A DNA stretch of 64,000 nt. Source: a virus. Made by a program: the position numbers and the translations under genes. The notes under the pieces are model-generated. The model searched no databases. It saw only the letters and a program-made list of their open reading frames with translations, and was not told the DNA's origin. The stretch spans positions 85,818-149,817 of IMG/VR virus record IMGVR_UViG_3300035670_000026; one strand, 5' to 3'. The first letter of the stretch is position 1. The number at the start of each line of letters is the position of its first letter. Positions 5,217 through 62,663 of the stretch are shown here, piece after piece.

Positions 5217-8066
5217 ATGGCTAACATAGTAGGGGAAGGTTTTAATCCAATAATTATAAGTCAAATAAAACAACGACAAAAAATCTATGGTGCTAGTGAT
5301 AGAGATAATCAAATATTATCTTTTTTACAAGCTCGAACAGGTTGGTGTAAGATGGTTTCATCTGTTGATGTAACATCTCCAGTTAGAGGAATACCTTATA
5401 GTGGAACTGAATTAGCTTCAAGATTTGTTTTATTTAATGGAACTACAAATGAATCACCTACTAGAGGAGCCCAAGAAACTTATCAAAGAGGTGGTATATG
5501 GCCTGGTGTAGGAGATTTTAATAATTATGCTTATGGTATGGGAGGTACAGCATTTGGTTTAAATCCAATGCCTGGTATTACTCAAGCTACTATCAAAACC
5601 GAAACTAGAGGTTCATTAAAAACAGCTACTATTAATATTAGAGCAAATAATAGAAATCAATTTGATATTATTGATGTTTTATATTTGCGTTTAGGATATT
5701 CAATGTTATTAGAATGGGGTAATAGTTCATATTATGATAATAATAATGTTTATATAACTGATAATCCTCATAGTTTAGCAGATGATTTTTTAACTGGTAA
5801 AGTAAAATACAATAATTATTATTCTAAAATATCTTCTAAAATAGAAGCATCTTGTGGAAACTACGATGCTATTATAGGAAAAGTAGTTAATTTTACTTGG
5901 ACATTTACAAAAGAAGGAACTTATGATATTACTGTAACTTTAAGAAGTTTAGGTGATGTTATAGAATCATTAAAAACAAATGCTCTTTTACCTGGTGGCA
6001 CCTCAGAAAATACATCAGGCACCTCAGGTACAGCAGGTACATCAGGTACTGCGGGGGTTGCCGGTCCTCCACCTGAACCAACCCCAGAAGATGTAATTAA
6101 ATCTTTTGCAAATGTACATCAAATAGGAAAAAAACTTTACAACTTACAACAAAAACTTCAACCTTTAGGAGCAACTGAAGCTGGTATTTCTAGATTAACA
6201 GGAACTAATTCTTCGGATACTATTGCTTTTAGACAACAATATGAAGGAAGCCCAGCTCAATATTATGTTAGATTAGGATATTTCTTAGAATATATTCAAA
6301 ATACTATCCTTCCATATATTGATACTCCTGATGTTCCTATTCAAAAAATAGATACTAATGTAGAGTCTAATATTATTTATTTAATGGCTCGCCAAATTAG
6401 TACTAATCCTGGAATTTGTATTTTTAATAAAGTTTTTGATACTCCTAATGGATTTATAGAGTTTGCAGCAGGAACAAATAATTTTATAGTTTCAGCACCC
6501 AACGGTAAAAATCAATATGGTAAGATAATGAATGCATATTTTAATATGCAATATATTCTTACTCAAATGGATTCATTAAAAAATGAAGATGGTAAAGTTC
6601 CATTGTATGATTTATTAAATTGTTTATGTCAAGGATGGAATAATGCAACTGGTAATTTTAATAAATTAGAACCTACTGTTGATGCAGACGAAAGTATTAT
6701 TAGATTTACAGATGAAGTTGTCCTCCCAGATAGAGATTCATGGTTAGGAAAACAAGGAAAATCAACAGAATTAGCTTCATTTGATGTTTATGGATATTAT
6801 TATGGGAAAGGTGATGATGGATATCTTAAAGGCCAATCCCATGCTGGTTTTATTAGAGATTTAAGTTTTAATACTACAATTCCACCTAATTTAGCAACTA
6901 TGATTACTATAGGTGCTACCTCAAATGGATATGTAGTAGGACAAGATTCAACAGCTTTATCTCGTATGAATGCTGGTTTAGATGATAGATTTAAAAAAAC
7001 TATTAAAACACACCAAGATACTAATACAACTGGAAGTGGTTCAATTAATGAAAATTATAAAGGTGCCCTAGAAGCATTTCAAGTATTTGCTCGTGATTTA
7101 GGTTCTTATAAAGGTACTGTAAAACCAAAATGGAACCAAGAAGCAATTACTAATTTTACTAATACTGCCGTTACATTTTACGAATATGATCAAGCTAAAC
7201 AATCATTAGAAGCTGCTGGATTAACTTCTGAAGAAGCTTCAGTATCAGCTCAGAAAAATGATTTTTCAATTTTGTCTACAAAACCTGCTTCTCCAAACAT
7301 TGGATTTTTACCATTTGATTTACAATTAACAATGGATGGACTTTCAGGAATGAAAGTTTACCAAAAATATGTAGCAGATTCTAGTTTTTTACCTTCAAAC
7401 TATCCCACATCATTAGAATTTTTAATTAAAGGTATAACTAATAATATTCAAAATAATGAATGGACTACTACTTTAGAATCAATTGCTGTACCTAAAAATC
7501 CATTTGGTTCTTCAATTGCTAAAGGTACTGTAGCAGCCGGTTCTGCAAGAGATACAAGTAGAGGTGCTGCTCCTACACCAACCGAATCTACACCAAACGC
7601 TGATAGATTAAGAACAATCTTAGCAAGTTTAGGGTACCGTGAAAAAGGTAGAGAATTATCTAACGGTGGAGATATTTCAAATGATCTAGTAAATTATGCT
7701 GCTTCAGTATTTAGAGAAATTAAAAAACAATTTCCAAGTTTAATAATTACAGTAACTGGAGGTAATGATGCTTATCACCAAAGATTATCTTATAAATCAT
7801 CTCATACCTTAGGCCAAGGATTAGATTTTGTAATTTCTCCCCTAACAACAGCTAATAAAAATGCTGTTGATAAAATATTAGGTGGATTTGCAGCCGGTAA
7901 CCAAAATAAAGTTGTTAGCTTTATTAATGAGTACGATTATCCATCATCAGCTGCAACTGCCGGTCATTTCCATATTAGAATAGGTGGTAAAATTGAAAGT
8001 AAAAGAATTGCTACATTTATAGCTCAAGCCGATAAAGGTCAATTAACAACATATCCAATAGTATAA
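5217..8066 (+). CDS. Baseplate hub protein with C-terminal M15-type peptidase domain
   Basis: A 949-residue protein. Residues 1-260 look like a baseplate hub. A Gly-Thr-Ser-rich linker follows near residues 265-285. The last 150 residues carry the pattern of M15/D-Ala-D-Ala carboxypeptidase-like zinc enzymes: S-x-H-x6-D as H863 and D870 in SSHTLGQGLDF, and an HxH at H917/H919 in GHFHIRIG. The enzyme would cut peptidoglycan cross-links during tail penetration, as T4 gp5 does with a lysozyme domain. Domain calls come from motifs only. The neighbouring LysM and tail genes support a place in the baseplate. Confidence 0.7.
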   Translation: MANIVGEGFNPIIISQIKQRQKIYGASDRDNQILSFLQARTGWCKMVSSVDVTSPVRGIPYSGTELASRFVLFNGTTNESPTRGAQETYQRGGIWPGVGDFNNYAYGMGGTAFGLNPMPGITQATIKTETRGSLKTATINIRANNRNQFDIIDVLYLRLGYSMLLEWGNSSYYDNNNVYITDNPHSLADDFLTGKVKYNNYYSKISSKIEASCGNYDAIIGKVVNFTWTFTKEGTYDITVTLRSLGDVIESLKTNALLPGGTSENTSGTSGTAGTSGTAGVAGPPPEPTPEDVIKSFANVHQIGKKLYNLQQKLQPLGATEAGISRLTGTNSSDTIAFRQQYEGSPAQYYVRLGYFLEYIQNTILPYIDTPDVPIQKIDTNVESNIIYLMARQISTNPGICIFNKVFDTPNGFIEFAAGTNNFIVSAPNGKNQYGKIMNAYFNMQYILTQMDSLKNEDGKVPLYDLLNCLCQGWNNATGNFNKLEPTVDADESIIRFTDEVVLPDRDSWLGKQGKSTELASFDVYGYYYGKGDDGYLKGQSHAGFIRDLSFNTTIPPNLATMITIGATSNGYVVGQDSTALSRMNAGLDDRFKKTIKTHQDTNTTGSGSINENYKGALEAFQVFARDLGSYKGTVKPKWNQEAITNFTNTAVTFYEYDQAKQSLEAAGLTSEEASVSAQKNDFSILSTKPASPNIGFLPFDLQLTMDGLSGMKVYQKYVADSSFLPSNYPTSLEFLIKGITNNIQNNEWTTTLESIAVPKNPFGSSIAKGTVAAGSARDTSRGAAPTPTESTPNADRLRTILASLGYREKGRELSNGGDISNDLVNYAASVFREIKKQFPSLIITVTGGNDAYHQRLSYKSSHTLGQGLDFVISPLTTANKNAVDKILGGFAAGNQNKVVSFINEYDYPSSAATAGHFHIRIGGKIESKRIATFIAQADKGQLTTYPIV

Positions 8067-10514: not shown

Positions 10515-11342
10515 ATGGATTTAAATGAAATGAGAAATCGACTGTCTTCAATGCAGTCAAAGCAATCTGGTAAAGGCAGCGGAGAAAAAAAATCTGTCTT
10601 TTGGAAACCCTCAGTAGGTAAGCAAGTAGTTCGAGTTGTACCCTCTAAGTACAACAAGAAAAACCCATTCACTGAAATGTATTTCCATTATGGTATTGGA
10701 AAAAATACTATGGTATCTCCAATTAACTGGGGTGAAAAAGACCCAATCGTAGAATTTGCAAAACAATTGCGTAGTACTAGTGACAAGGAAAATTGGCGTA
10801 TGGCTAAAAAGCTTGATCCTAAAATGCGTATTTTTGTTCCTGTTGTGGTTCGCGGTGAAGAAAGCGAAGGAGTAAAATTGTGGCAGTTTGGTAAAGAATT
10901 ATATATGGATTTCTTGAACCTTGCTGACAACGAAGATGTTGGTGATTTTACCGACGTAATGAATGGTCGTGATATTACATTGACCACTGTAGGTCCTGAG
11001 GTAACAGGCACAAACTACAACAAAACTACTATCATGCCTAAAGTTAAAGAAACTTTATTGGCCGATGATAAAGCAACTATTGAAGCATTGCTTTCAAATC
11101 AACCTAATCCTATGGAAGTATTTAAAAAATACCCATATGATGAAATGAAGACAGCTCTCCAAGAATGGTTGTCTCCTGAAGACGAATATTCCGAAGGTGA
11201 TATTATCGATGATGAAAAGGAAGAAGTTGTAGAAAAACCTGCTAAAGCTTATTCACTTAAGACCCCTGCGTCTGAAAAAGTAAGTAAGGCAGATAAGTTT
11301 GATGCTTTGTTTGACGAAGAAGATAACGACTTACCTTTTTAA
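10515..11342 (+). CDS. Single-stranded DNA-binding protein, gp32-like
   Basis: A 275-residue protein with the layout of T4 gp32: a basic N-terminal arm (RNRLSSMQSKQSGKG), an OB-fold core with VFWKPSVGKQVVRVVPSKYN, and an acidic tail ending DEEDNDLPF. It would coat ssDNA at the fork and recruit helicase, recombinase and polymerase. The zinc-binding Cys/His set of T4 gp32 is absent: the segment MVSPINWGEKDPIVEFAKQL has Ser, Asp and Val where Cys are usual. The tail tip resembles the bacterial SSB C-terminal peptide. It heads a run with UvsX, FEN nuclease and helicase. Confidence 0.9.
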   Translation: MDLNEMRNRLSSMQSKQSGKGSGEKKSVFWKPSVGKQVVRVVPSKYNKKNPFTEMYFHYGIGKNTMVSPINWGEKDPIVEFAKQLRSTSDKENWRMAKKLDPKMRIFVPVVVRGEESEGVKLWQFGKELYMDFLNLADNEDVGDFTDVMNGRDITLTTVGPEVTGTNYNKTTIMPKVKETLLADDKATIEALLSNQPNPMEVFKKYPYDEMKTALQEWLSPEDEYSEGDIIDDEKEEVVEKPAKAYSLKTPASEKVSKADKFDALFDEEDNDLPF

Positions 11343-27717: not shown

Positions 27718-30320
27718 TGTATCAATCCATCTATTACGATAGAGAGGAATACCAGTACTACTTAAGAGATGATAAGCGAGGTTGGAAGGTATTTAATTAC
27801 CAGCCAACCTGCTATGTTGCTGATCCAGATGGTGAATTGGAAACTCTTGATGGTATTCGTGTATCACCAATCAAAAAGATTGATTGGAAAGATTCTAGAT
27901 TTTATGAAAAAGATGTAGATAAGAACACTCGTGTGTTAGTAGATTTATATCACGAGTCTGATGAAACACCTTCATACCATAATTTAGTTTATCTCGATAT
28001 TGAGTGTGAGATTGCTGGAGCACTTACACCTGAAAATATTAAAGACCCTAAAGGTAAAATTACATCTGTTGCTTTGTACGATAATAATAGTAAAAAATAT
28101 TACTGTTTATTATTAGATGAAGTAGGTAAAATGTCTGAAGCCAAATCTGAAGGTAAAGAGGTGATTCCTTACCCTACAGAAAAAGATTTGCTCAATGGAT
28201 TTCTTGATTTATGGATTAAATTAGATCCTACTATCATTTCAGGATGGAATAGTGAATTCTTTGATATTCCTTATTTGTATTATCGTATTTCTAAAGTATT
28301 AAGTGAAGATATTGCTCAGTATTTATCTCCTATTCGTAAGGTAAAATCTACAGCAATGTTTGATGCGGGGGTAATGACTGATTTTGTAGTTGTAGGTGGT
28401 ATTAATCACTTAGATTACATGAATTTGTTTAAAAAGTTTATTACTAAACAAGAATCAAGTTATGCTTTAGGTAATATCGGAGAAAAATATGTTAAATTAG
28501 GTAAAATTGATTACAAAGGTTCACTCGATAGACTATTCCAGGAAGATATAGAAAAATTTATTGAATATAACCTTCGAGACGTTGAAATTATTGTTGAATT
28601 AGAAAAATCACTTAAATTCATTGAATTAACAGTTACAATTGCTCATTTGTGTCATACAACTTATGAATCAATCTATTATTCAACTGTGTTAAATGATGGA
28701 GCTATTTTAACTTATCTAAAACGTAAAGGTATTGTATCTCCTAATAAACCAACCACATATAATCCTGCACTTAAAGAAATTAAGGAAGAATATGCTGGGG
28801 GTTATTTAAAAGATCCAGTACCTGGTTTGTATGAATGGGTTATTGACCTCGATTTTACTTCGTTGTATCCCTCAATCATTCGCTCACTTAATATGGGTAT
28901 TGAAACACTAGTAGGACGCGTTGTAAACCGAGATAAATTTGATAATCAATGGTCTTTACGTGAACTTAAGGCAATGGATCCTAATAAAATTATCGAAATT
29001 GAAAAAGTTAAAAAAGATAGATCATTGGTTCGTTCTGAAGTAAAAGTAAAAGACATTATAGAACTTATTAAAGAAGGAAATTTACTAATTTCAGCTCCTG
29101 GAGTAATATTCCGTAAAGATAAATCAAGTGTTGTGTGTGAAATTCTAGCAGACTGGTTTGCTAAACGTCAAGAATATAAGGCGTTGATGAAAAAAGCATA
29201 TAAAATCGACAACGACCCTGTTATGGGAGAGTTTTATAATAAACGTCAACACGCGTATAAGATTAAATTAAATGATGTTTACGGGGTATTTGCTATCAAT
29301 GGTTGGAGATACACTGATGGACATAAATTTATTAGTAAAGCTATTACTCTTACTGGTCAAAGATTAACTCAAGAGTCTATTAAGTTTGTTAATAAATGGA
29401 TGAATGAAGAATTAGGTACTAAAGATAAAGATTACATTGTTACATCAGATACCGATTCACTGTTTATTCAAACTAAAGAACTAATATTACAACGTAATCC
29501 TGAATTAGCAGATGGTACACAAGATGAAATTGTAAAAGCAGTACTTAAAGTTGCTACCGAAATTCAAAAATTAGCAAATGATCATTTACATGTTTTAGTA
29601 CAAGAGTTATTTAATGTTAAATATCCTGATGAACCACATTATTTTGAGTTAAAACAGGAGGTTGTACTTGATAGAGGTTATTTTGCGGGTAAACGTAGAT
29701 ATGCAATGCATATTGTAAATAAAGAAGGTGTACCAACAGATGAACTAGATATGAAGGGTTTAGATTTGATGAAATCAAATTTTCCTCCACTATTTAGAAA
29801 GTTTGGTGAACATATTTTAAATGAAATTATGTTCGGTACTTCTAAAGCTAGTATTGATAAGCAAGTCCTTGAATTTAGAGAATCACTTAGAACAGTAGGT
29901 TGGGAACAAATTTTAAAACCTACAGGATTAAAGAAAATGAGTGAATATATCGCTTCAGGTCCTACAGCTGGTGAAATATTTAGTAAATTAGGTTTAAAAT
30001 GTCCTATTAATACTAAAGCAGCAATTTATTACAATGATTTATTGCGTTTTAAAGGATTAGATAAAAAACATCCAACTTTTCAAATAGGAGATAAAATGTA
30101 TATTGGATACCTGAAAGAAAATCCGTATCGTATCGATGTGATTGGTTTTAACGGATATAATGATCCTCCAGAAATTATGGAATTCATAGAAAAATATATT
30201 GACAGAGATGGATTATTTGATTCAGTTATGAAAAATAAATTAGAAGGCATTTATAAAGATCTTAAATGGGGTATGCCTGTACTTAATAAAAAAGTTAATA
30301 AATTCTTTACATTCGAATAA
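27717..30320 (+). CDS. 43: Family B DNA polymerase, gp43-like
   Basis: 867 residues, close to the length of T4 gp43. Exonuclease motifs are YLDIECE (D94, E96), WNSEFFDIPYLY and YNLRDVEI. Polymerase motif A is DLDFTSLYPSII near residue 380, motif B KIKLNDVYGVFA, and motif C TSDTDSLF near residue 578. It is the replicative polymerase with proofreading. Its start shares the last base of the MazG-like stop codon, and the sliding clamp gene follows. Confidence 0.96.
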   Translation: MYQSIYYDREEYQYYLRDDKRGWKVFNYQPTCYVADPDGELETLDGIRVSPIKKIDWKDSRFYEKDVDKNTRVLVDLYHESDETPSYHNLVYLDIECEIAGALTPENIKDPKGKITSVALYDNNSKKYYCLLLDEVGKMSEAKSEGKEVIPYPTEKDLLNGFLDLWIKLDPTIISGWNSEFFDIPYLYYRISKVLSEDIAQYLSPIRKVKSTAMFDAGVMTDFVVVGGINHLDYMNLFKKFITKQESSYALGNIGEKYVKLGKIDYKGSLDRLFQEDIEKFIEYNLRDVEIIVELEKSLKFIELTVTIAHLCHTTYESIYYSTVLNDGAILTYLKRKGIVSPNKPTTYNPALKEIKEEYAGGYLKDPVPGLYEWVIDLDFTSLYPSIIRSLNMGIETLVGRVVNRDKFDNQWSLRELKAMDPNKIIEIEKVKKDRSLVRSEVKVKDIIELIKEGNLLISAPGVIFRKDKSSVVCEILADWFAKRQEYKALMKKAYKIDNDPVMGEFYNKRQHAYKIKLNDVYGVFAINGWRYTDGHKFISKAITLTGQRLTQESIKFVNKWMNEELGTKDKDYIVTSDTDSLFIQTKELILQRNPELADGTQDEIVKAVLKVATEIQKLANDHLHVLVQELFNVKYPDEPHYFELKQEVVLDRGYFAGKRRYAMHIVNKEGVPTDELDMKGLDLMKSNFPPLFRKFGEHILNEIMFGTSKASIDKQVLEFRESLRTVGWEQILKPTGLKKMSEYIASGPTAGEIFSKLGLKCPINTKAAIYYNDLLRFKGLDKKHPTFQIGDKMYIGYLKENPYRIDVIGFNGYNDPPEIMEFIEKYIDRDGLFDSVMKNKLEGIYKDLKWGMPVLNKKVNKFFTFE

Positions 30321-32340: not shown

Positions 32341-32631
32341 ATGGCACTAGAAGCAATTTATAATGCGGTTATTGTAAAACCCATTGAAGCAGAAGAAACC
32401 TCACATGGAGGTATTATCGTTCCCGATTTGGGAAATGAAAAAAACAAACTTGGAGAAGTAGTAGCAGTAGGTGCTGGTTACTGGTCAGTAACTGGAGCTT
32501 ATATTGAAACTGTTCTTAAAGTTGGTGATGTAGTAGTATTACCTACTATGGGATTTAGTAAACTGGAATATGAAGGTGATGAATACTGGATTGGTCCTGA
32601 AAATCAAGTTTTAGCAAAAGTAAATAAATAA
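32341..32631 (+). CDS. groES: GroES-like co-chaperonin
   Basis: 96 residues with the GroES beta-barrel: VIVKPIEAEETSHGGIIVPD contains the mobile loop that contacts GroEL, then GEVVAVGAGYW and VGDVVVLP. It caps the chaperonin. Unlike T4, which supplies only gp31, this phage also encodes GroEL directly downstream. Confidence 0.9.
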   Translation: MALEAIYNAVIVKPIEAEETSHGGIIVPDLGNEKNKLGEVVAVGAGYWSVTGAYIETVLKVGDVVVLPTMGFSKLEYEGDEYWIGPENQVLAKVNK

Positions 32632-34245
<1,614 letters not shown>

Positions 34246-37475: not shown

Positions 37476-38429
37476 TTGGCTAAAAAGAAAAAAGTCCCTC
37501 AAATTGTAAAGCAGATTAAGAATCAACCTTTACGAGAAATGAATTATGCCTTTGAAAAGGCGATTTCATATAGCCAATTTTCTGTATTTCAATCGTGTCC
37601 ACGTAAATGGGCTTTACAATATAGAGATGGTTTTTACACGTCTGAATCATCAATTCACATGACTTTCGGTACGGCATTACACGAAACTTTACAACATTAT
37701 ATAACAACTATATACGAAGTTAGTGGTGCTGCTGCTGATAGAATTGATTTAAAAGAATATTTTGAAGAACGATTTAGAGAAACTTATCTAAAAGATTACA
37801 AATCTAATAAAAATACCCACTTTAGCAATTCAGTCGAAATGAATGAATTTTTTGAAGATGGATTAGCTATTTTAGATTTTGTAAAGAAAAAACGAAGCGG
37901 TTATTTTGGTAAAAGAGGTTGGCACTTAGTAGGATGTGAATTACCACTTGTAGTTACTCCAAATCCTAAATATTCAAATATTTTATATAAAGGTTATTTA
38001 GATGTTGTTTTATACAATGAAACTCTAAATAAAATAAAAATTCTAGATATTAAAACCTCAACTAGAGGATGGACTGATAAAGAAAAAAAAGATGAAATAA
38101 AACAATTTCAACTTGTTCTTTATAAAAAATTCTTTAGCCAACAATTTAACATTCCCATTGAAGATATTGATGTAGAGTTCTTTATTGTACGAAGAAAAAT
38201 TTGGGAAAACTCAGAATTTAATATTGGTAGGATACAAGAATTTAAACCAGCTTCAGGTAAAGTAAAATTAAACAAAGCATATAATGCTATTAATGAGTTT
38301 ATAGGAGAAGCATTTAATACAGACGGTTCTCACAATTCTAGAAACCATCAACCACAACCCTCAGCTTATAATTGTAGATTTTGTCCTTTTAAAGATAATA
38401 AAGAACTTTGTGATAAAGAAGTGTTTTAG
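37476..38429 (+). CDS. PD-(D/E)XK nuclease, Cas4/RecB-like
   Basis: 317 residues. FQSCPRKW holds the first Cys, TFGTALHE the conserved His/Glu, and YLDVVLYN with ILDIKTS the catalytic Asp and D-x-K. The C-terminal NCRFCPFKDNKELC gives the other Cys of a likely 4Fe-4S cluster. It is probably a DNA exonuclease for recombination or host DNA breakdown. The start is TTG, in the same AAGTT context used by ATG starts; the first ATG is at 37542. Confidence 0.82.
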   Translation: MAKKKKVPQIVKQIKNQPLREMNYAFEKAISYSQFSVFQSCPRKWALQYRDGFYTSESSIHMTFGTALHETLQHYITTIYEVSGAAADRIDLKEYFEERFRETYLKDYKSNKNTHFSNSVEMNEFFEDGLAILDFVKKKRSGYFGKRGWHLVGCELPLVVTPNPKYSNILYKGYLDVVLYNETLNKIKILDIKTSTRGWTDKEKKDEIKQFQLVLYKKFFSQQFNIPIEDIDVEFFIVRRKIWENSEFNIGRIQEFKPASGKVKLNKAYNAINEFIGEAFNTDGSHNSRNHQPQPSAYNCRFCPFKDNKELCDKEVF

Positions 38430-55357: not shown

Positions 55358-55816
55358 ATGGCGCTTTGGAAATTTACAAATACAAATAAGTACGGAACAT
55401 TAAGAAGCCGTGTTATATTTGTTCCTGATGGTAAACCACTTTCAATTGGTAAAGGATTTGGTCCATTTGTTGGTGTTCGTAGATTTAGATATACTCATGA
55501 GCATATGCACCCACCAGCATTATTTACTTCATCTATTGATAATCAAAAGTATATTGTTCCTGGTTGGCAAAAAGTAATACCTGAAACTACTTTGAATGAT
55601 ATTGAGTGGATTAAACCTGAACCTAAAGTTGTTCAACAACAAAATGTTTCTCCAACAAACAAAGAATATAAATTTGAATCTAAAAGCGAACCAGGTAGTT
55701 TTTATGTTGTTCGAGTAACAGGTAATAAAGTAAAATGTAATTGTGCTGGTCAATATCGAGCAAAAGATAGACAGTGCAAACATATGAAGGAAGTTAAACA
55801 GAAATTAGGTCTATGA
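55358..55816 (+). CDS. SWIM zinc-finger protein
   Basis: 152 residues. The C-terminus has CNCAGQYRAKDRQCKHM, the CxCx(n)CxH pattern of SWIM domains, which bind DNA or proteins. The N-terminal half is basic and aromatic (GFGPFVGVRRFRYTHEHM). Overlaps the HNH gene by four bases. Confidence 0.75.
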   Translation: MALWKFTNTNKYGTLRSRVIFVPDGKPLSIGKGFGPFVGVRRFRYTHEHMHPPALFTSSIDNQKYIVPGWQKVIPETTLNDIEWIKPEPKVVQQQNVSPTNKEYKFESKSEPGSFYVVRVTGNKVKCNCAGQYRAKDRQCKHMKEVKQKLGL

Positions 55817-58588: not shown

Positions 58589-58963
58589 ATGAAAGAAAAT
58601 AAATTTTTAACAAACAAGTGGCTTGAAATTAAGAAGATGTTCGAAGCCAACACTAATGGTTCTAAAGAGTATGGTTCGAATTTCGAAATTGATGGTGAGT
58701 TAGATGAGTTAACTCAACACTTCTTAGGTTATATTACTAAGTTGACTTTATCTAAAGGTTTTGATGCTGAAGTAGAAGGCGTTAAATTAGATCTTTGGAA
58801 AGAGCGTATTTGGAGTTTAATTGAAAATGCTGGTTTGCTTCCAAACATTGCTTGGAAAGATGAACTTGAAGAAGAAAAAGAAATCGAAGATACCTGGAAT
58901 GGGTATGATGATGAGTTTGATGTTGATATTGATGCTCTAGAAAAACAAGTTTATGGATTCTGA
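58589..58963 (+). CDS. Hypothetical acidic protein
   Basis: 124 residues, helical with a strongly acidic C-terminus (DEFDVDIDALEKQVYGF). Not recognised. Confidence 0.68.
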   Translation: MKENKFLTNKWLEIKKMFEANTNGSKEYGSNFEIDGELDELTQHFLGYITKLTLSKGFDAEVEGVKLDLWKERIWSLIENAGLLPNIAWKDELEEEKEIEDTWNGYDDEFDVDIDALEKQVYGF

Positions 58964-59087
58964 AATTAAAGAACGTTTGTATAAAGAATTGATGCAAGTG
59001 TTAATATCATTAGAAGATGGTGATTTTAATGGAGCAACAATGGAACTTGAAGATTTAATTAATCGTCTTAAATTTGACCAACTATGA
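58953..59087 (+). CDS. Hypothetical 44-residue acidic protein
   Basis: Helical, acidic (EIKERLYKELMQVLISLEDG). Overlaps the gene before by 11 bases and the gene after by four. Confidence 0.6.
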   Translation: MDSEIKERLYKELMQVLISLEDGDFNGATMELEDLINRLKFDQL

Positions 59088-59365
59088 AATTTCTTGAATT
59101 AAACGGATACGGAAATAACTTTAAACACCTAATTTCCATTAAATCAATTTCAGATATTGCATTTGAACCTAATTATACACATATTGTTCTTAGTAATAGT
59201 ACTTCAGTCAATGTAGTTGAAACCGAAGAAGAAATTATTAAAATGATTTATCATCTCGAAGGTTTTATTACTAATAAAGATATAGCTTCAATTTACGAAT
59301 TTACTCAACGCAGTGGTGATGATGCTTGGGATGTATCAACATATGATGATGAATTACCTTTTTAA
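59084..59365 (+). CDS. Small protein with SSB-like C-terminal tip
   Basis: 93 residues. A compact alpha/beta body is followed by an acidic tail ending DDELPF, nearly the same as the bacterial SSB tip (DDDIPF) and the end of the phage gp32-like protein (NDLPF). It might compete for host proteins that bind SSB tails. This is inferred from six residues. Confidence 0.68.
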   Translation: MKFLELNGYGNNFKHLISIKSISDIAFEPNYTHIVLSNSTSVNVVETEEEIIKMIYHLEGFITNKDIASIYEFTQRSGDDAWDVSTYDDELPF

Positions 59366-59593
59366 ATGAAACCAAAATTTGAACTTGATTTACATGGTGT
59401 AAAACACCAAGATGTAGAAGCAACTTTAGATAATTTTTTCCTATGGGAAAATAATATCATATCACAATCAATACAAGTAGTAATCGGAAACTCAACCGAA
59501 ATGCAAAAAATAGTTTGTAAATGGCTTGATTCCAATGAATTTTCTTATTATATTCCATCACATAATTTAGGAGTTATTTACGTTAATGGCTGA
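59366..59593 (+). CDS. Stand-alone Smr-like domain protein
   Basis: 75 residues with LDLHGVKHQDVEATL at the start, the LDLHG motif of Smr domains, and KIVCKWLDSNEF near the end. The usual HGxG reads GNST, so nuclease activity is doubtful. It begins directly after the preceding stop. Confidence 0.7.
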   Translation: MKPKFELDLHGVKHQDVEATLDNFFLWENNIISQSIQVVIGNSTEMQKIVCKWLDSNEFSYYIPSHNLGVIYVNG

Positions 59594-59915
59594 GAAAAAA
59601 GGCAACACAGAAAAATTACGCTACGACTTTAATGAAGCTCGTTGCTGTGAAATTTATCTTTCAGGATTAAATCGTTATGGTAGAGTTACTGGTCGTGAGT
59701 TCCGCTCATTTGGCGGTTCACGTCGTATTCTAAACGTTGATAATCGTGAAAATGTATTTTATGAGGATTATAATGGTCCAGTCTATTGGTTTGGTACTAA
59801 CAAACGAGTACCGGATGATATGATTGAACCTAAAGTAATGTTTTTAAATGGGCAAGATCCTCGCAAATTTGGTACACTTCGCCCACATGAAAGGCATCTA
59901 TTAGATAAAATATAG
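59586..59915 (+). CDS. Hypothetical basic protein
   Basis: 109 residues, Arg/Gly rich (RYGRVTGREFRSFGGSRRIL). No family known. Overlaps the Smr-like gene by eight bases. Confidence 0.65.
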   Translation: MAEKKGNTEKLRYDFNEARCCEIYLSGLNRYGRVTGREFRSFGGSRRILNVDNRENVFYEDYNGPVYWFGTNKRVPDDMIEPKVMFLNGQDPRKFGTLRPHERHLLDKI

Positions 59916-61241: not shown

Positions 61242-62280
61242 TAAAAATAATATTTGCATTATTGTAGGTAGTTATCCTCAAAATCATATGGATACTGCTC
61301 TTGCAAGTTTAACAATTGAGAGTTTTAAAAGACAAGGTTATGATATTTGCTTTGTTTCTCATTCCCCATTAAACAATGATATACAAAAAACATGTAAATA
61401 TTACATTTACTCAGATGAAAACTATACTTTAAAATTCCCTAAACCTACATCAGTAGGAATTTACCACGCTAATACTGACATATACTACCAAACAAATTGG
61501 GGTAATAAAATTGGCTCCCATTCATACTCAGTATTAACCAATTTAAAAAATGCTTTTTATTTGCTACAACATAAATCCTATAAAAAATTCATTTATGTAG
61601 ATAGCGATACTTTCTTACACCAAGAAGATCATGAATTACTAGAAACAAAATTAGCAGAAACTGATTTTGAAAACAAAGACTTTTGGTTTATGCTTGAAAG
61701 TGGAGAAAATAATATGCCTTTACCGACAACAGCTTTTTTTGCTGGTGATATTGCTCATTTTAATGATGTTTTAAGTCAAATAGATTCACCTGAAAAATAT
61801 TTAGAATTTGGTTCGTTAGTAGGAGGATATGCCTTAGAAGCAATATTTGGTGCTTTGTTTATATGTGAGGGACATAATGGTCATTTAGAACATACGGCAC
61901 CAAGATATCTATTTAAAAGTCCTTGGTTAGGTATTTCATCAACTTTAGGAAAAACAATCATACCGGGATTAAACCCACCATTTCAAGTTAATGCTGATAT
62001 AGTAAAATACAAGCAGATTGAAGCCCTAAATTGTGTAGCATTTGTAATTGAATTTAATTCAAGAAATGAACTTATAACAGCTAAATTATATAAAGATAAT
62101 AATATGATTGTTTCAACAGAATTAACTACGGGTCCTATTATTTGGTGGGCATATGAGTGTGAAGATACAAAAGTTTGGAAAATAGAATTATATCATAAAG
62201 ACGAGTTAGTTACTAAAGTAGAAAGAACAACAGAAGAAATCTTTTGGAACAATTGGTCATTTCTTGAAATAAAAAACTAG
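61234..62280 (+). CDS. Putative glycosyltransferase
   Basis: 348 residues. YKKFIYVDSDTFLHQEDHEL gives a DxD site, and FNDVLSQIDSPEKYLEFGS follows as in GT-A enzymes. The start at 61234 (MINKNNICIIVGSYPQNH) is preferred; a longer frame overlaps the previous gene fully. Donor unknown. Confidence 0.65.
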   Translation: MINKNNICIIVGSYPQNHMDTALASLTIESFKRQGYDICFVSHSPLNNDIQKTCKYYIYSDENYTLKFPKPTSVGIYHANTDIYYQTNWGNKIGSHSYSVLTNLKNAFYLLQHKSYKKFIYVDSDTFLHQEDHELLETKLAETDFENKDFWFMLESGENNMPLPTTAFFAGDIAHFNDVLSQIDSPEKYLEFGSLVGGYALEAIFGALFICEGHNGHLEHTAPRYLFKSPWLGISSTLGKTIIPGLNPPFQVNADIVKYKQIEALNCVAFVIEFNSRNELITAKLYKDNNMIVSTELTTGPIIWWAYECEDTKVWKIELYHKDELVTKVERTTEEIFWNNWSFLEIKN

Positions 62281-62353
62281 GAAAATTAAAAATTAGTCAT
62301 TATATTATCGAAAAATAATTAAGCAAGCTTGCACAGATAAACCACACTCCTTA

Positions 62354-62364
62354 ATCCGTATATA
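62354..62364 (+). repeat. Left half of an 11-bp inverted repeat pair
   Basis: ATCCGTATATA here is the exact reverse complement of 62848-62858. The pair flanks two small genes. The core CGTATATACG is itself palindromic. Possibly an operator. Confidence 0.4.
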
Positions 62365-62372
62365 CGATAAAA

Positions 62373-62663
62373 ATGAGAACAACTATAGAACAAAAAAGAC
62401 AACAAGCCGTTGTTGATTTGATTAATAAAATGTTTGAAATTGCCGGTCACCAAGTAACTTACGATGATATTAAAGATCGTAAAGATGATTGGTATACCCA
62501 ATGGACTATGAGTCCCCAACAAAATACCGAGTGGCAAGATTGGGGAGCAGAATATTTAAGAAAAAATCTTAAACTAAATAAAAAATTTGCCGAAACAGAA
62601 ATGGCTTGGGTAAGTTTAATGTGGGGCCTAAAATTTAATAAAGATCCATATGAACAAATATAA
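62373..62663 (+). CDS. Hypothetical protein
   Basis: 96 residues, helical and Trp-rich (DWYTQWTMSPQQNTEWQDWG). This looks like a conserved phage type, function unknown. Preceded by a 92-base gap that also contains a GCAAGCTTGC palindrome at 62323-62332. Confidence 0.7.
   Translation: MRTTIEQKRQQAVVDLINKMFEIAGHQVTYDDIKDRKDDWYTQWTMSPQQNTEWQDWGAEYLRKNLKLNKKFAETEMAWVSLMWGLKFNKDPYEQI

Follow-up and report, generated by a model that had tools for sequence, protein, structure and literature searches.

Background

The C-terminal tip of single-stranded DNA-binding protein (SSB), the SSB-Ct, is one of the chief address labels by which bacteria direct the upkeep of their genomes. As set out in the part of PMC10164576 used here, the E. 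coli SSB-Ct reads DFDDDIPF and binds its partners with micromolar affinity (3-4 micromolar for RecG), for which a C-terminal Phe with its carboxylate, a Pro before it and acidic residues are needed. The Phe docks into a hydrophobic pocket, the carboxylate on a basic lip and the acidic residues on a basic ridge, and binding is weakened or lost once the Phe is removed or the Pro altered (PMC10164576, same part). The defence systems Hachiman, Nhi, Retron-Eco8, AbpAB and Hna are reported to be responsive to phage SSBs in the sections of PMC13381803 and PMC10732053 drawn on here.

Small phage proteins ending DDDLPF occur in phrog_4932/DUF3127, phrog_378/DUF669 and phrog_18154/DUF736 (the DUF736 match lies below its cut-off), which carry the SSB label in PHROGs. 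Here we describe a 93-aa phage protein, termed the tip protein, which resembles these in size and ending but belongs to another family without such a label, and in which an SSB-Ct-type tip is carried by a head matching no SSB family. Neither the SSB-Ct motif nor the class of fold to which the head belongs is new; the family itself has at most weak matches in Pfam and PHROGs and none among named phages. In a literature search, with most subscription journals outside its coverage, no phage non-SSB protein with an SSB tip was found.

Results

The window analysed here is a stretch of 64,000 nucleotides (positions 85,818 to 149,817) of an IMG/VR virus record of 149,817 bases, IMGVR_UViG_3300035670_000026; its features are collected in Table 1. 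The preliminary description had assigned to the locus a small protein ending DDELPF, and the open reading frame and its translation confirm this. The C-terminus, YDDELPF, is the true end of the 93-aa protein: the tail reads ...DAWDVSTYDDELPF, and the TAA stands immediately after the end, ...DDAWDVSTYDDELPF.

Table 1. Positions of the tip-protein locus and of the phage gp32-type SSB within the window
Feature	Position	Strand	Remarks
Phage's own gp32-type SSB, end DEEDNDLPF	10515..11342	+	Pfam gp32 E 6.5e-13, PHROG SSB E 2.1e-20
Upstream neighbour family	58589..58963	+	no more than about 130 bases from the tip gene in 17/17 tip-bearing loci; alignment A7
44-aa ORF, stop overlapping the ATG of the tip gene (ATGA)	58953..59087	+	
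Tip protein gene	59084..59365	+	ORF, ATG start, TAA stop, 93 aa
Head (residues 1-57), predicted FlbD-like fold with one helix and five strands	59084..59254	+	AlphaFold2
Acidic linker (residues 58-87), for the most part predicted to be disordered; length and sequence differ among members	59255..59344	+	AlphaFold2
SSB-Ct-type tip DDELPF	59345..59362	+	exact C-terminus of the 93-aa protein
75-aa ORF directly downstream, weak Smr-domain resemblance	59366..59593	+	Pfam Smr E 0.027, below cut-off
Downstream neighbour, family MAEKxG...RVTxREFRSF	59586..59915	+	17/17 tip-bearing loci

Among the six-frame ORFs of at least 60 aa in the window only two end in PF, the tip protein and the gp32-type SSB. 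Over 14 phage records, read in pieces and including 13 selected for holding the tip-protein family, 18 of 3,939 six-frame ORFs of at least 40 aa end in [LIV]PF, where the frequency of this pattern inside the proteins would give 2.4. These 18 comprise 13 members of the tip-protein family, 2 gp32 proteins, 2 occurrences of one 261-aa protein ending WGNLPF and 1 ORF of 42 aa ending KLIPF. The SSB-type tip on the 93-aa protein is real and above chance. It resembles the SSB-Ct in its exact C-terminal position, the terminal Phe, the Pro, the hydrophobic residue before it, the acidic residues upstream and a linker that structure prediction presents as flexible. The terminal Phe is preceded by Pro in all 12 distinct tip-bearing members of the family, and the five residues before LPF hold 2-3 D/E in each of them. 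Unlike SSB, the tip protein, a putative ligand, has a head of about 57 residues that matches no SSB family. As a separate observation, the 261-aa protein, which in contig G058 (43741-44526) ends SSMSWGNLPF, has no acidic residues just before its LPF.

The host is likely a member of Bacteroidota, as inferred from the relatedness to Flavobacterium phage immuto and from gene order. The replication genes follow the order found in immuto (SSB, RecA-like, 5'-3' exonuclease, DnaB, ribonucleotide reductase), the ribonucleotide reductase of the window being presumed from gene order, and gp32 matches its immuto counterpart at 48% over 72% of the protein. In addition, a large protein (5217-8066) matches only the four immuto records at E 1e-5. 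Among the matches listed, the polymerase is nearest to Microcystis and Synechococcus phages, with 28-34% identity, so the host is not certain. Two adjacent ORFs (32341-34245) look like GroES and GroEL. GroEL was considered as a pointer to the host and set aside, with at most 61% identity to the genome sequences found and no clear host; its best match is a Pelagibacter MAG contig, which may be misbinned phage.

An SSB match was found in 117 of 118 genomes of the phylum of an Amoebophilaceae genome (Bacteroidota). We examined 33 of the SSB loci, and the best 30 end DDLPF (29) or DGLPF (1); the three extra loci were omitted, two lacking a recognisable frame and one, a 111-residue frame with a masked letter, ending RPS. 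Thus the earlier statement that the tip is of the host type agrees with these Bacteroidota genomes, the host group itself being inferred. The likeness to host SSB proposed at the same time stands as a match to the host group but is not exclusive, since the gp32-type SSB of the phage has the same kind of tip and the small protein therefore copies the phage SSB as much as that of the host. By their sequences, the SSBs of the host group, the gp32 of the phage and the 93-aa protein share one kind of tip.

The gp32 relatives in viral contigs were surveyed in the best 80 of 133, which were not deduplicated. PF is C-terminal in 72 and LPF in 59 of the 79 that could be read to the stop codon; the ends other than LPF are SPF (10), VPF (3), DLPWEK (3), DDFVF (2) and DDENDD (1), and one is broken early. 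In L053 (3001-3828) the gp32 frame is broken early, with 83 aa to the stop, and its near relative L051 is intact. In the clade of the window (with L003-L082), a KFDxLF stretch is followed by the acidic LPF tip, whereas the gp32 of immuto ends SKFDDLFN without LPF, its KFDDLF resembling the KFDxLF of the clade. A host-type gp32 tip in this clade as against none in immuto bears on a possible use of host SSB partners in gp32-type replication. Tip protein and gp32 of the clade share the acidic LPF tip and the same phage, but gp32 has an ssDNA-binding core and the tip protein matches no gp32 or SSB family.

Convincing gp32 genes were found in 3 of the 17 tip-protein records, ending NDLPF (window), TGSPF (G055) and DGLPF (G062), and in G055 the small protein ends DDDLPF while gp32 ends TGSPF. 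One of the three contigs in which the small protein lacks the tip also has a convincing gp32, which still ends VDDLPF. Loss of the small-protein tip therefore does not follow loss of the gp32 tip, and no claim of covariation between the two tips is possible. A weak gp32 candidate in G058 (E 4.8e-4) was dropped, being a 370-aa acidic ORF unlike gp32.

Searches with the protein and with a two-row alignment led to 14 viral contigs, and a repeat with 15 rows to the same 14; searches with other rows on top added L327 and L328, which have the tip, and L318, L319 and L326, which do not. In most searches patterns in the head served to choose the candidates, which tblastn then confirmed; a tip was no requirement for this, although it can add to the score, and in the first search one of six patterns (WDVSTYDD) adjoined it. 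The resulting alignment (A8) holds 12 distinct tip-bearing proteins, that of the window included, and 2 distinct tip-less ones. All 66 pairs that can be formed from the 12 agree in LPF, and residues -25 to -9 have a mean ungapped identity of 14%, the linker being hardly alignable. In pairs with head identity below 0.6 (a figure taken without gaps, which places L327 and L328 among the low ones because their starts lie one residue further upstream), LPF is identical in 43 of 43 despite an average of 8% over residues -25 to -9. Moreover, across 10 distinct sequences Leu is encoded in three ways, Pro in four and Phe in two; these codon changes are synonymous, hence the residues and not the DNA are what is kept.

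Two distinct relatives, at 36% identity, lack the tip, and both lack the downstream neighbour gene. The preliminary description had counted homologues without the tip against its proposal; such homologues exist as a side branch alone, and within the syntenic family the tip is conserved, LPF being present in 12 of 12 distinct members with all 17 loci syntenic. In a tree of heads the tip-less pair is grouped (97/93), with L327 and L328 beside it on long branches. The simplest reading is a single loss of the tip, the root being arbitrary and the tool having issued a long-branch warning.

Beyond these contigs, tblastn of the window protein (E<=1) against 50,697 phage records found no relative among named phages, nor did tblastn of two distant members (E<=10) against the same records, two matches at E 8 being ignored. 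A search of genome contigs with the two-row alignment gave no tip-protein relative. Nor did a tip protein turn up when 49 records (the 48 contigs behind the gp32 loci, and immuto) were scanned with the two-row profile, or 19 of these with a 10-row profile; the contigs are fragments and immuto is complete. Matches of the family in Pfam and PHROGs are weak at most, the best being an unlabelled PHROG at E 0.0007.

The tip goes with its gene neighbourhood. The downstream MAEKxG...RVTxREFRSF family sits directly 3' of the tip gene or one small ORF further; it was found in none of the three tip-less contigs, in which the upstream family lies 0.4 to 2.4 kb away. The same search detected it in immuto and in each of the 6 tip-bearing contigs included, and in none of the 18 that had been selected for their gp32. 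The immuto member (62184-62513) is encoded in a genome with no detectable relative of the tip protein. The small ORFs flanking the tip gene are less constant: the 44-aa ORF is present in 8 of the 17 tip-bearing loci, the window counted, and in the tip-less L326, and the 75-aa ORF is confined, within the 20 loci compared, to L084, L085 and the window. Elsewhere in the window, a protein encoded at 55358-55816 carries CNCAGQYRAKDRQCKHMKEV near its end, presumably a SWIM-type zinc finger, and has similar ORFs in L002 and L095; a PD-(D/E)XK nuclease (Pfam PDDEXK_1, E 2.2e-19) is encoded at 37476-38429. The phage also encodes a DnaG-like primase of its own, at positions 28709-29638 of the virus record (Pfam DNAG_N, E 4.3e-8).

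A first AlphaFold2 model of the tip protein had a mean pLDDT of 60 and gave no useful PDB match. The model built with 14 rows has a mean pLDDT of 75, with 85-91 per block of ten over the head (from residue 3); the linker has 42-61 per block in the two models, with a short low-confidence helix at 70-75, and the blocks from residue 61 onwards have 46-61 in the second model and 35-44 in the first. The modelled head has an FlbD-like fold. Its top match in BFVD covers 56 columns at rmsd 1.7 and 34% identity (E 2.6e-4, one of two BFVD matches in all with E <0.001), and 9 among the 50 BFVD matches listed bear flagellar names (target TM up to 0.81), the structures being predicted on both sides. The likeness to FlbD/SwrD (PF06289) and to FlbD-like phage proteins concerns this predicted fold; 36 among the 50 BFVD matches listed have 59-81 residues and are shorter than the tip protein, whose sequence match to PF06289 is weak, and no flagellar role is implied. 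Four of 14 members match Pfam FlbD weakly, the best at E 0.011, without reaching the curated cut-off of 24.7 bits (a match at E 0.015 in the same scan scores 16.2 bits). In hhalign the head scored 23.2 against FlbD with a probability of 10% (24.8 and 16% in an earlier run), the best of 200 column shuffles reaching 18.6. Because of that probability, and since an unrelated alignment of the tip to SSB reaches 20.9, this score alone is weak.

Foldseek against the PDB gave nothing under E 0.001. In a second look at PDB chains, LytTR and RemA domains came first with Z 5.5-7.1, a level that may mean merely a common arrangement; no bacterial SSB chain is among the PDB matches listed, and such a fold may still be present. 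The window protein has no match at E<=1 to an SSB (PF00436) or gp32 (PF08804) domain in Pfam or PHROGs, and both domains are absent from the match lists for further sets of 15 and 14 members of the family. All 12 members have a head with net negative charge (-1 to -4 over 60 residues); gp32 heads, by the same kind of measure, are net acidic or neutral in 13 of 13, so charge is weak evidence. Profile-profile alignment to host-group SSBs aligned the last 8 residues alone (probability 4.5%, score 20.9). Hence, as far as sequence comparison goes, a head matching no SSB family carries an SSB-Ct-type tip.

To see how DDDLPF is distributed, we looked for its codons followed by a stop in IMG/VR viral contigs, where at least 80 loci have it. 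The 81 matches read in these 80 comprise 20 of the bacterial SSB type, 13 of the gp32 type and 48 others. When 20 of these 48, chosen by eye as different, were scanned, 9 matched PHROGs labelled single strand DNA binding protein, one of them with 77 aa; the other 11 belong to unlabelled families, have no match or, in L400, match polymerase-exonuclease weakly. By family, 42 of the 53 classed proteins among the matches listed are ssDNA-binding, in several folds. The tip alone is therefore no proof of mimicry.

Discussion

We favour, as the leading reading and at somewhat below an even chance, a two-part adaptor or competitor that docks into the SSB-Ct pockets of DNA enzymes. It would consist of the small beta head of FlbD-like fold, an acidic, flexible linker some 20-30 residues long and a functional SSB-Ct tip. 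Enzymes whose usual docking site is host SSB, and phage gp32, would take the tip into their pockets, and meanwhile the head would hold another partner or block the docked enzyme. As the outcome, SSB-docking enzymes would be recruited to phage DNA, or kept from it, by a protein needing no ssDNA binding. Since the tip is kept in relatives sharing the neighbourhood, the phage probably hooks host or phage DNA enzymes. Binding to RecQ, RecO, PriA or exonuclease I, put forward in the preliminary description together with a decoy effect or a tether to the phage fork, is putative. The adaptor comes first in our ranking for two reasons: a single tip of micromolar affinity would compete badly with host SSB and gp32 as a decoy, and the constancy of the neighbouring genes points to a partner for the head. 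Against it stand the two distinct relatives without the tip, and the prevalence of ssDNA-binding proteins among those ending DDDLPF means that the head may bind ssDNA after all. Furthermore, gp32 is abundant in T4 and the same is expected of the gp32 of this phage; as the latter already shows the tip, a second carrier looks redundant.

We consider it possible, if rather doubtful, that a dedicated family with a non-DNA-binding head redirects host SSB-docking enzymes in trans. The enzymes would then be handed to phage replication, or repair and SSB-sensing defence would be kept off phage DNA. If this is true, phages would be shown to use the SSB-Ct label in trans, and the protein would offer a compact natural handle on RecO, RecQ, PriA, RecG and DnaG of Bacteroidota. 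If the tip docks, losing the last Phe alone should abolish the interaction.

Unlikely in our view is a decoy whose free tip competes with host SSB or gp32 for SSB-Ct pockets and so disarms repair nucleases or defence. The match to the tip on SSBs of the probable host phylum, the position of the gene among small ORFs of unknown function and the response of several defence systems to phage SSBs speak for it, but in the sections of the defence reports used here (PMC13381803, PMC10732053) the trigger of Hna and AbpAB is not placed in the C-terminal tip. At the 3-4 micromolar affinity given in the cited part of PMC10164576, a monomeric decoy would also need high abundance against the many tips of gp32 and host SSB. 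In a PADLOC scan of 14 members, which covers defence proteins and not counter-defence, one member gave one weak match (AbiEi, E 0.0039).

Ranked below the decoy, and likewise improbable, is an accessory protein whose head binds ssDNA or RNA while the tip recruits partners, in effect an SSB of unrecognised fold. This explanation is kept alive by the DDDLPF tips, which lie mostly on ssDNA-binding families among the matches listed, and is consistent with fold matches that include the DNA-binding LytTR, RemA and Sac7d/Sso7d (Z up to 7.1, a common level). On the other side, FlbD-like phage proteins are the closest to the head in predicted fold, gp32 is already available to the phage, and the net acidic head argues weakly against nucleic acid binding.

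In T4, C-terminal hydrophobic-acidic motifs serve clamp binding (gp55, gp33, gp43), and given this precedent the C-terminus could be a motif for the phage sliding clamp and not an SSB-Ct. We hold this to be very improbable, as LPF preceded by acidic residues is what SSB tips have, the same kind of tip stands on the gp32 of the phage, and the polymerase of the phage ends KFFTFE, not LPF. Least probable of all is a chance or inherited C-terminus without function, for which the tip-less relatives could be cited and against which stand the invariant LPF beyond a diverged linker and its synonymous codon changes.

The DDDLPF survey suggests that tips of this kind recur more widely on small proteins. 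Among loci L348-L427, and beyond the SSB families that were tested, a group of 85-91 aa with the tip is found in L354, L384, L421 and L425, and L413 encodes a 76-aa protein with the same DDDLPF end.
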